Notes under the pieces: model-generated | Told to the model about the DNA's origin: nothing | What the model saw: the letters and a program-made list of their open reading frames with translations, nothing else | Database searches by the model: none | Program-made: the position numbers and the translations under genes | Shown here: positions 19,933 to 54,525 of the stretch, piece after piece | Numbering within the stretch: the first letter of the stretch is position 1 | How the letters are laid out: each line of letters opens with the position of its first letter | Source of the DNA: Metallosphaera sedula DSM 5348 | Lineage (GTDB): Archaea; Thermoproteota; Thermoprotei_A; Sulfolobales; Sulfolobaceae | NCBI RefSeq assembly: GCF_000016605.1 | Contig: NC_009440.1 | Coordinates: 744,001-808,000, forward strand | DNA length: 64,000 bases | Reading direction: 5' to 3'

Positions 19933-20312
19933 GTAGAGAGATTGGGTAGGCCATCTAGAAACGGGAAAACATGCCTTTATTCACCAACCTTTAATCTAGG
20001 TTAGGACCTAAGGTGCCAGGATAGTAGTTAATTTACGCTTATTCATAGCCTTGAGGTTAGATCTCCTGCGTTTCAAGTTGCACAACTTTTGGGTTAAAGA
20101 CTATAACTGATCTTAAGGGTAATTAGGCAGGATCCCTAAGTTCATATCTCAGATATCAACTAAGTTCCTTCAATGTGTTTTTACTCCCTCCCACAATAAA
20201 CGGTTAAAGGAAGCGTCTCGCCTGGAGGGACTGCCCGAGATACTTGTGTATTTGACGTTCGAAATGCCTAGAATACACACCAAATCGACAAAGTCTCTCA
20301 CTTGGATAACTA
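19933..20312. other. 380-nt stretch without a supported gene
   Basis: I see no ORF with coding character, no tRNA, and no strong repeat here. It separates the kinase gene from an AT-rich island and ends at a minus-strand gene. Confidence 0.4.
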
Positions 20313-20861
20313 TTAGGAACTTGATGAGGCAGATTCACACCTAAAATTTTCGAGGGAGACAATCTCTAGATCTGGTAATATTCTTGAAATCTTTTCTGCA
20401 ATATCTTTCAGTCTACCTCGAGGATCTCTCTTGCCATTAATTATTCCGTTCGCGTATGTCATGACAACTTTGTAAATCTTTTCGAAGTCAGTATCGTTGG
20501 TAATCAAAGTAATTTTATCAAACTCCCGTCCCTCAAGGAGCGAATACAGTTTACTGAAAATTATTATATCAAACGCGCTCGGGTTTTTTTGTAGATTATT
20601 CAATGTCTTGTCTATTTCTCTAATAATTAATATTATATCCTTTAATGGACCACTATAAACACGATTTACTACTTCAAAAGTTGTATTTATCTTGATTTCT
20701 ATATCTTTTATAAAATCTCTTAAGTTATTACTTTTCTTAGGACCATAATTATCTTTTATTTCCTCATAGCTAAGATTAATAATTTCATCCTTTCCATCTT
20801 GAATGATCCTCTTGCTTAGCATTTTCCTTATACCTCCTCGAGGAATAGCTCGTTTGGCCAT
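20313..20861 (-). CDS. C-terminal half of a PIN nuclease domain (split or inverted)
   Basis: The AT-rich gene gives 182 residues (ATG 20861; ATG 20822 behind a GAGGAGGT site is an alternative). Residues about 97-130 match the last part of a PIN domain: FDIIIFSKLYSLLEG gives the third acidic residue, and ITLITNDTDFEKI gives the fourth (TNDxDF). The N-terminal D and E motifs of a PIN domain are missing. They are found instead in the adjacent divergent gene. The first 90 residues are helical and unmatched. It may be a real subunit or half of a gene broken by inversion. Confidence 0.55.
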   Translation of the reverse strand: MAKRAIPRGGIRKMLSKRIIQDGKDEIINLSYEEIKDNYGPKKSNNLRDFIKDIEIKINTTFEVVNRVYSGPLKDIILIIREIDKTLNNLQKNPSAFDIIIFSKLYSLLEGREFDKITLITNDTDFEKIYKVVMTYANGIINGKRDPRGRLKDIAEKISRILPDLEIVSLENFRCESASSSS

Positions 20862-20883
20862 AGGTTATTCTTGGCTGTTTCTT

Positions 20884-21270
20884 ATGAATAAGGCGTTTTT
20901 TGTAGACACGAATATTCTTGTTTCATGGTTATATTATAGGGGGAGCAGGAGTCACAACTTAATAAATGAGGTTGTGAGTTGCATAAATAAAGGTGGAGGA
21001 AGGCCTAAGGTTTTAGAGGACACGGTTGAGGAATTGGCTACAATAACCTCCGATGCCTACCTGATGGCAGGAATTATTTTGAAAGAACGTCTTAAACCTG
21101 ATTGGGACGTCTCAGGGTTATCGAAAAGGGCAGGAATCCTTGAGGAAATACTAGTGAAATATGACGAGATCTATGAAGAGACCTATGACCGCTTGAGTAA
21201 AAACCTAAAGAAGGCTAGGATTTACAAAAAACTTATCTCTGGACATGAAATGCAACATAATACCTTTTAA
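20884..21270 (+). CDS. N-terminal half of a PIN nuclease domain (split or inverted)
   Basis: ATG 20884 gives 128 residues beginning MNKAFFVDTNILVSWL, the classic first acidic motif of PIN ribonucleases. EDTVEELATITSDA (about 51-64) supplies the second acid. The sequence then runs into charged helix and stops without the DxxI(I/A)A and TNDxDF motifs that complete a PIN site. Those motifs occur in the gene transcribed in the opposite direction 22 bp away. The 3' end overlaps a converging gene by 66 bp. Base composition is AT-rich as in its neighbours, suggesting transfer. Confidence 0.55.
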   Translation: MNKAFFVDTNILVSWLYYRGSRSHNLINEVVSCINKGGGRPKVLEDTVEELATITSDAYLMAGIILKERLKPDWDVSGLSKRAGILEEILVKYDEIYEETYDRLSKNLKKARIYKKLISGHEMQHNTF

Positions 21271-21867
21271 GACTGTTATTTCCCCCATAATCTCGTTCTT
21301 TAGCAGGAATATAACTATTGGTATCCCGAAAATAAATACTGTGGAATTTATTAAGTCGATTAGCTTTCTTTCTTTAGATACATGAATCGTCTTAATATTA
21401 ACTTTCTTCTTAGAAATTTTCATCTGACCCATGATTGAATATAGGTAAGTCAAGAAATGGAGATAAATGCTGTAGTAGTACGCTATAAAATAACCGGAGT
21501 AGTCCTTTGAGGTCTCCTCCACGAAATTATCAAGGTTCTTTTCTAGTACTCTTATGAATTTTTCCAGTTTATTCATGGCTAATTTCCTGTATTCTCCAAT
21601 CGTGGTGTTATGCTCCACGAGGGAATTATAGAGGTCTAATTCCTCTTTCATTTTCTGGTACTTTTCGGAAATGATTTCCAATGCATCATCAGATAAGGGG
21701 TTGGCTAAAGCATTAATTAACATTTCACCTATTTCAATAATCTCCGTGCCATACCTTTCGACGATGTAATCTCCCATCTTTTCAATTAACCTAGAGATAT
21801 GAAGGGGTTTAGCAGTGTCCCACTCAGCATACTCCGAAAATGATCTCAAAATCTCTTCAGATAGCAC
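21205..21867 (-). CDS. AT-rich orphan protein with one membrane segment
   Basis: The 220-residue protein starts at GTG 21867. Residues 1-165 are helical and charged, with an aromatic stretch SGYFIAYYYSIYLHFL (about 124-139). A hydrophobic segment STVFIFGIPIVIFLL (about 175-189) could anchor it, followed by a short tail ending FFVNPSLL. No family is recognised. The 3' 66 bp overlap the PIN-half gene. In this context a partner or immunity role is possible, with nothing direct to support it. Confidence 0.5.
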   Translation of the reverse strand: MLSEEILRSFSEYAEWDTAKPLHISRLIEKMGDYIVERYGTEIIEIGEMLINALANPLSDDALEIISEKYQKMKEELDLYNSLVEHNTTIGEYRKLAMNKLEKFIRVLEKNLDNFVEETSKDYSGYFIAYYYSIYLHFLTYLYSIMGQMKISKKKVNIKTIHVSKERKLIDLINSTVFIFGIPIVIFLLKNEIMGEITVLKGIMLHFMSRDKFFVNPSLL

Positions 21868-22141
21868 TCTCTTTTACCCCAATATCTAACTTCACGGCTA
21901 GAACATAAATGAGTGTAGTTTATCACCAGCTTCTGCAGATAAAGCCATCAGAGGAGTCAAGAGGGTGAAGAGTATCCTTCTGACATGAAAGGCCCTCTAA
22001 TATGAAAGACGACAAAAAAGAGATACTTCGTGTGATGGATGTGATTGATGGTTCTCTTACTTTTATCTAGGGACCTTGAGTTTGAGGATCACATAGGCGA
22101 GTTCATAGGAAAGTTCGTCGAGAAAGCGTCACAATTTAACA
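21868..22141. other. Intergenic stretch with a short gene remnant
   Basis: Most of the region has no coding signal. A 35-codon frame from ATG 22048 (MVLLLLSRDLEFED...) runs to a stop at 22153-22155 inside the following IS element's left end. It looks like the tail of a gene interrupted by, or fused to, the insertion. Product unknown. Confidence 0.3.
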
Positions 22142-23460
22142 TTACTGGGGATTGAGGGGGCGGAAGTCCCTATCCGCGTGGGGATGGATAGCCCCAGAAA
22201 AGATTTTGTATCAAGAGAAACTTCTATATAGCGTTGAAATCAAAAGGCAACAAGGTAACCCTCTCATTCAAGTACAGGGCATACCCGACACCAGAGATAG
22301 AGAGAAAACTCATCAACACGATGGAAATAGAGGCGAAAGTGTACAACAAGTTACTGGACTACATCACGGAGAGAAGAAGACAGGGAATGAAGGCAACACA
22401 GTTCGACACTCAAAAGCTACTTAAGGACATGGACGAGAAACACGAGATGTACTCTAAAGCCCTACAAATGGTAAACAACGTCCTATGGTACAACATCAAG
22501 GTGTTATCAGAACTAAAGAGGAACGAAAAGAAAGTGGGGAAACTAAGGTACAGGAAGGCGTTCAAGATAGTCTGGTACAACCAATCTGGGTTCAAATTGC
22601 GAGGCGATAAGCTCCATCTATCCAAGATAGGAGAGATCAAGCTCCTTCTACATAGGCCAGTACAGGGAGAAGTGAAAGGGGTCATCCTGAAGAGAAGTAA
22701 AACAAACAAGTGGTACGCTATCTTTCAAGTTGAGCAAGAGAAGCAACCCCTAGAAAGGACCGGTAGAGCCGTGGGGATTGATCTAGGTATAGAGAAGTTC
22801 GTTACAACGAGCAATGGTGTTGTAATCGAGAACCCTAAACTCCTAGATAGGAGGGAAGAGAGGATCAAATTGTTACAAAGGAGATTATCGAGAAAGAGAA
22901 GGGGTTCAAGGAATTACGAAAAGGCTAGACTGAAGCTCGCTATGGCTTACGAAAGGCTTGAGAACACTCTTAAGGATTATATCCACAAGATAACCACGTG
23001 GTTAGTCAAGGATCATGACGTAATAGTTGTTGAGAAACTGAATACATAAGGGATGGTACAGAGCTCTTTCGGTAGGTTGAGGAAGCACATCTTCTACTCC
23101 AAGTTCTCAACCTTCCTCCATCACCTCTCCTACAAGGCTGAAAGAGCTGGTAGGAGGGTGGTCGAGGTGGACCCAGCTTACACGTCGCAGACCTGTTCTA
23201 GGTGCGGGTACAGGGGAAAACTTGGTCTGTCTGATAGGGTATTTCGTTGCCCTAATTGTGGTCTTGTAATAGATCGTGATTACAACGCGTCCCTAAATAT
23301 CTTGAAACGCGGGGTCGGGACTGCCCCTCTGCCTGTGGAGGGGGAACCTCTACTGTTCACCTTTCACGAGGCGGTGTACAGCAAGTTCTCCCAAAGAAGC
23401 AGGAAATCCCCATCGCGAGGTGGGGATGCTCAGTCCGTAAGGGCGGAGTAGTTCACCGTG
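22142..23460 (+). mobile_element. IS200/IS605-group element, tnpB only, with subterminal hairpins
   Basis: Boundaries are approximate. The left end has a hairpin CTATCC (22170-22175) / GGATAG (22186-22191). The right end has a perfect 7-bp hairpin ATCCCCA (23406-23412) / TGGGGAT (23421-23427), then TCAGTCCGTAAGGGCGGAG. Subterminal hairpins without inverted terminal repeats are typical of this group, whose ends are cut as single strands by TnpA. No tnpA is present, so it could move only in trans. The region from the end of tnpB through the right hairpin is where the TnpB guide RNA (omega RNA) is normally encoded. Confidence 0.7.
22234..23451 (+). pseudogene. tnpB: tnpB (RuvC-type RNA-guided nuclease), broken by one in-frame stop
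   Basis: A TTG start at 22234 opens a frame of 271 codons that ends at TAA 23047-23049. The same frame continues without a shift to 23451, so a single nonsense codon separates the parts. All three RuvC acids remain: Asp in GIDLGIEKF, Glu in VVEKLNT (immediately before the stop) and Asp in VIDRDYNASLNIL. The zinc finger is CSRCGY ... CPNCG. Length with readthrough (about 405 residues) is normal for TnpB. In related proteins the stop position holds an ordinary residue before GMVQ. It is probably inactive unless readthrough occurs. Confidence 0.85.
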
Positions 23461-23590
23461 TATTGATAATAGAAGGAGATATTTCACAATCTAGCAGAGC
23501 GCGATAATCCACGCTAGCTTAACAAGGTTAACGTTGACACTCAATTAATTTAACAGGAAATCCTTTTAGGTAAAAGCTCGAGATTATCCC

Positions 23591-54127: not shown

Positions 54128-54525
54128 GGCGGGAGATCGTGGATGATGACACCTTTGTCGTCTATCCTCTCGAGCTCCTTGTCCAAGGTAAGGAATTTCA
54201 TGTTGAGGGAAAGGGCTGTGAAGTAAAGGGTAAGGTCTATCATGTCCCTATGTCTATCCTGGTTCAGCCTCGCTAGGTAGAACACCCTAAGGGGAGTTTT
54301 GACGCGTTTGAAGCCTGAGAGGCTGAGGAGCCCTTCCTTCACCCTTTTCATGTCCACCCGAGTTCCGGATTTGCTCATCTTCTTGAGTACCCAAAGGGCC
54401 TCGAGCATAGAGATCTCGGAGAAAAAGACCTCGTGGGAGGAGAGCCTCTCCAGAGAGCTCTCCGTGCCCTTAACCTCAACCCCCAACACGGGGAGAACGA
54501 AGCTGGTGTCGAGAAGAACCCTCAT
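54124..54525 (-). CDS. vapC: VapC-type PIN-domain ribonuclease toxin
   Basis: The 133-residue protein contains the PIN acids: Asp in MRVLLDTSFVLPVLG (first motif), Glu in ISMLEALWVLKK, Asp in RDMIDLTLYFTA (third) and Asp in KFLTLDKELERI (fourth). Size and order match VapC toxins that cleave RNA. It overlaps its presumed antitoxin gene by 4 nt upstream. Its 3' end overlaps the converging kinase gene by 4 bp. Partner specificity and RNA target are not visible. Confidence 0.87.
   Translation of the reverse strand: MRVLLDTSFVLPVLGVEVKGTESSLERLSSHEVFFSEISMLEALWVLKKMSKSGTRVDMKRVKEGLLSLSGFKRVKTPLRVFYLARLNQDRHRDMIDLTLYFTALSLNMKFLTLDKELERIDDKGVIIHDLPP

Follow-up and report, generated by a model that had tools for sequence, protein, structure and literature searches.

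A PIN-like nuclease gene probably broken by a single short inversion in an accessory operon of Metallosphaera sedula

Two divergent ORFs in Metallosphaera sedula DSM 5348 are very probably the remains of the second gene of a two-gene operon, in which a helical partner precedes a PIN-like nuclease; a single inversion of ~365 bp would have broken this gene, and the pair appears to have been acquired horizontally and to be probably toxin-antitoxin-like. The ORFs lie in the window, which here means the whole 64,000-nucleotide stretch analyzed (bases 744001–808000 of a single 2,191,517-bp contig), and coordinates are window positions unless a contig is named. The locus is a clean natural case of two overlapping genes being broken together by one micro-inversion; the resulting annotation, two divergent genes, is misleading, and either piece scores poorly as PIN on its own.

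The two divergent ORFs are two parts of one PIN gene

An ORF check confirmed both reading frames of the original prediction, namely, a minus-strand ORF of 182 amino acids at 20313–20861 and a plus-strand ORF of 128 amino acids, counted from its ATG, at 20884–21270. A search of 98 related genomes showed that the plus-ORF product resembles only the N-terminal ~110 residues of proteins of ~290 amino acids, and that the minus-ORF product resembles only residues ~111–288 of the same proteins. Both halves match adjacent positions of intact single genes in genomes G014, G019, G030, and G020, and on a 292-position family model the plus piece spans positions 3–114 and the minus piece positions 111–291. 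The two ORFs are therefore two parts of one PIN gene. From the family match, the re-inversion described below, and a motif alignment, the N-terminal half (codons 1–110, with the acids of VDTNIL and TVEEL) was assigned to 20884–21213 on the plus strand, where it is inverted, and the C-terminal half (codons 111–288, with the acids of SAFDIIIF and TNDTDF) to 20313–20849 on the minus strand. The remaining ends are by-products of the junctions: the final 18 residues of the plus ORF, beyond KNLKK and up to 21270, and the first four residues of the minus ORF, MAKR, at 20850–20861.

When nine joined relatives are aligned, D9, T10, N11, E49, D212, D237, and D239 are invariant, and the acidic motifs stand in PIN order. 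The division of the PIN acids noted in the original prediction is borne out by this alignment, with D9 and E49 in the plus ORF and D212, D237, and D239 in the minus ORF. Alone, the plus ORF gave a sub-threshold PIN_3 match across residues 1–50, and the minus ORF gave no PIN domain match; AAA and PRK14962 matches of the C-terminal half were weak, fell under their own cut-offs, and were judged to be chance. In Pfam, PF01850 weakly matched six of seven family members (best E 3.3e-4), the first of them just under the curated cut-off (21.5 versus 23.6 bits), and weak matches to PIN_12 (PF16289) and PIN_8 (PF18476) were found in two members and one member, respectively. The check suggested with the original prediction, a search with the joined window protein, gave a PIN match over the N-terminal part only (E 0.015), which is weak and not decisive by itself.

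Profiles were also compared with ten PIN proteins encoded by the M. sedula genome: the N-terminal part aligned with VapC profiles (E 5.8e-5), the C-terminal part alone scored low (E 0.01), and the middle alone gave nothing. When the ~125-residue middle was removed and a full-length alignment was forced, TDDNDF fell on the T-D-E motif of VapC. The weak profile matches and the invariant motifs point to PIN membership, and on these sequence grounds the joined protein is PIN-like with a long insertion and is predicted to have nuclease activity. A further 12 genes of the M. sedula genome score above the curated cut-off for PIN (PF01850), one of them in the window at ~54157–54519 on the minus strand.

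The partner gene and the inverted segment

Where the locus is intact, a partner gene of ~230 amino acids immediately precedes the PIN gene and overlaps or abuts it. The partner in the window is the minus-strand ORF at 21205–21867, of which the original prediction took in only the final residues. The right breakpoint falls inside this ORF, which has lost its final 13 codons and ends NPSLL, whereas relatives end NSLGHRLFLAVFND or similar. On the basis of the re-inversion and comparison with relatives, the first 218 codons are in place at 21214–21867 on the minus strand, followed by a spurious stop that now ends the ORF at 21205. According to the re-inversion, the last 13 codons (SFGHRLFLAVSYE) and the stop are stranded on the plus strand at 20850–20891, where they overlap the PIN start by 8 nt.

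To locate the breakpoints, every segment with ends in 20835–20865 and 21195–21239 was re-inverted in silico, and both restored proteins were scored against relatives. The best re-inversion was 20850–21213 (364 bp), with four equivalents reaching 20846–21217, and runner-up re-inversions lay a few bases and a few score points away. The five equivalent breakpoint pairs, a 4-bp ambiguity, correspond to a microhomology of TAGC at the left breakpoint (20846–20849), the inverse of GCTA at the right breakpoint (21214–21217), as seen in the sequence and the re-inversion scan. Open frames also result from many other breakpoint pairs and so are no proof by themselves; it is the alignment to relatives that sets the breakpoints. 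Re-inversion yields a PIN protein of 288 amino acids in a gap-free frame, with the junction SKNLKK-AIPRGGIRK, and a partner of 231 amino acids ending VNPSSFGHRLFLAVSYE, and it brings back the stop/start overlap of the two genes (TATGAATAA). Both restored proteins align to the nearest relative without a gap at either junction.

Because a single re-inversion mends both genes, one event accounts for the split nuclease, the lost partner tail, and the tail stranded upstream of the plus ORF. The inversion extends from 13 codons before the partner stop to PIN codon ~110. The proposal that a single minus-strand PIN gene had its 5′ half inverted is thus strongly supported, both by this double repair and by joined orthologues in several genera, although the breakpoints lie at 20846–20850 and 21213–21217 and not at 20862 and 21270 as first placed.

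The inverted identity of the breakpoints is limited to the 4 bp of TAGC/GCTA. With 10- to 25-nt windows per side, similarity between the sites was not above that of random pairs (7/20, random fraction 0.28; 11/50, random fraction 0.81), the best inverted matches in 60-nt windows around the breakpoints were ordinary, and a search for inverted repeats or invertase sites at the breakpoints found none beyond these 4 bp. A 25-nt imperfect inverted repeat (72%) does not join the two breakpoints, with one arm overlapping the right breakpoint and the other ~45–70 nt inside the segment, and was discarded as the cause for this reason. The inverted similarity between KFFVNPSLL and AFFVDTNIL that had been remarked on at the right boundary is coincidental, KFFVNPSLL being normal sequence of the partner, for which relatives have RTFVNPNSL and ENTVNPNSL.

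These data bear on the suggestion of a reversible on/off switch, in which a recombinase would flip the ~364-bp segment to and fro and so turn the PIN nuclease on and off. A locus that is still flipping should give two intact frames on re-inversion and show no decay, as this one does. However, the homology is 4 bp in random-like surroundings, no recombinase was found among the neighboring genes (kinase, tnpB, CBS protein, topoisomerase, HTH regulator, and aconitase-like genes), neither the flipped state nor the split arrangement occurs in any of the 15 other loci described below, and the other broken copies show frameshifts, truncation, or loss. We regard such a switch as very improbable, and give an equally slim chance to a version in which flipping goes on in living populations without a recombinase or by an unrecognized route, so that most cells have the PIN nuclease off and a few regain it along with the full-length partner.

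The divergent halves might instead be expressed separately and assemble one active site as a true two-subunit nuclease, and each does have an ATG start and complementary acids. This reading is contradicted by the absence of the split from the 15 other loci, and the end of the N-terminal half and the start of the C-terminal half are junction by-products, the N-terminal half is antisense to the operon, and the same event truncated the partner; we consider it the least credible of the readings weighed here. The remaining suggestion, a simple break, fits well as a single micro-inversion inactivating the PIN gene. The flip would have destroyed the nuclease because the acidic residues are now on two divergent products and the N-terminal half is antisense to the operon transcript. 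Neither half has gained a stop or frameshift, so that decay is not yet visible, and the chance of a stop-free half from base composition is ~1e-7 for the C-terminal half and ~2e-4 for the N-terminal half; this lack of stops indicates that the break is probably recent.

Genomic setting and fate of the pair in relatives

The best reading of the locus is as an accessory one gained by horizontal transfer. It lies in an insertion at 19933–23517, flanked by a kinase gene on one side and the CBS/topoisomerase genes on the other; these flanking genes are nearly adjacent in four congeners that lack the insertion, and the operon has a GC content of 35% versus 47% for the window, within the lowest 0.2% of equal-size stretches. 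In M. javensis, the closest congener among the genomes compared, with a kinase 88% identical to that of the window, a different insert with transposase-like genes occupies the same place (L086:2847–6669). The kinase to CBS/topoisomerase interval thus looks like an insertion hot spot, nearly empty in the four congeners and different in content between M. sedula and M. javensis. An IS605-type tnpB sits in the same interval as the operon; this gene (22234–23451, plus strand) is interrupted by an in-frame TAA at ~23047–23049, between its OrfB_IS605 and Cas12f1-like TNB domains.

Among 31 family genomes, the partner and PIN genes are confined to the same 11; both are also present in one genome of another family of the order, where the genes are those of a Caldisphaera bin. 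The M. javensis and Caldisphaera copies came from a scan of genome contigs with closer partner sequences, the all-family alignment being too divergent for such a scan. No relatives were found on viral contigs, plasmids, or phages, PADLOC gave scattered weak matches only, and a literature search for the module, the split PIN, and the locus tags returned nothing on this locus.

Both genes are intact in 9 of the 16 loci (G030, G014, G019, G020, G001, G009, the M. sedula paralogue, the second M. javensis copy, and the Caldisphaera copy). In five loci the partner is open and the PIN gene broken or missing, by independent lesions of other kinds than inversion: a frameshift in G026 at 853 kb, a frameshift plus a stop in G016, a truncated gene in M. 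javensis (1345 kb), several lesions in the incomplete genome G006, and, in G026 at 895 kb, no recognizable PIN gene. Both genes are broken in G026 at 162 kb, and in the window the PIN gene is broken by the inversion and the partner trimmed. The nuclease gene is hence broken in almost half of the loci (7/16), and wherever the PIN gene is intact among the 16, so is its partner. For this 5-to-0 bias, p is ~0.03, or 0.05 allowing for gene length, in a small sample whose loci are not all independent. G026 carries three partner copies (853, 895, and 162 kb; L020, L057, and L060) that resemble antitoxin-like orphans, every PIN gene beside them being broken or missing. The M. sedula paralogue is an intact, distant pair at C1:1805039–1806585 (L002, L035, and L056), which persists in the genome beside the window copy, and the second M. 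javensis copy is a related intact pair at 2055 kb.

The loss pattern also bears on whether the inversion could be a sequencing, cloning, or assembly artefact, with the living strain carrying the joined gene. The flip is short, shows minimal microhomology and no later decay, and the gene, if toxic to a cloning host, could have favored a broken clone. Nevertheless, no direct sign of misassembly was seen, and other species carry independent lesions in this gene, evidence that genuine loss is common; an artefact therefore seems very unlikely to us.

Probable role and comparison with known systems

The partner is predicted to be all helical, and comparison with Pfam gave no consistent match and no recognized antitoxin or DNA-binding domain. 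AlphaFold models built from few sequences had mean pLDDT values of 53 (PIN protein) and 62 (partner). Fold searches of the PDB with these low-confidence models found nothing, and searching solved structures by sequence yielded nothing beyond weak helical matches that look like chance. The two-gene operon with overlapping or abutting genes, a toxin-antitoxin trait, is present, and the 5-to-0 loss bias is what a toxin held by an antitoxin would give. Gene order and loss pattern, both read from sequence, thus suggest that the intact pair is toxin-antitoxin-like, with the partner restraining the PIN nuclease.

On our preferred reading of an operon broken by one inversion, the pair would have been acquired horizontally into a variable insertion site, and a one-off flip, perhaps an accident of microhomology repair or template switching, would have destroyed the nuclease and left the partner without its last 13 residues. 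The flip may have been tolerated because loss of the nuclease was harmless or beneficial. The locus exposes a little-known module of a PIN protein and a helical partner, which this analysis found in Sulfolobaceae and in one Caldisphaera bin, and the frequent breakage of its nuclease, with the partner usually persisting, makes it a candidate toxin-antitoxin-like or defense pair.

As in phase-variable invertible switches, a short segment has been flipped in place inside a gene, but those systems differ in having inverted repeats, a neighboring recombinase, and flipped relatives. The PIN_12 and PIN_8 families, which have longer insertions, resemble the joined protein in the weak matches noted above; only some members match, so that membership is not clear. 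VapBC type II systems (PF01850 PIN toxin) differ in the size of the toxin (VapC, ~130 amino acids), whereas the PIN protein here has ~290 amino acids with the ~125-residue insertion between motifs, and in the RHH, AbrB, or HTH DNA-binding domain of the antitoxin, in place of which this module has its helical partner of ~230 amino acids. By contrast, the module shares with VapBC a two-gene operon with the partner first and an overlapping or abutting PIN gene behind it, the four PIN acids, and frequent loss together with horizontal spread.
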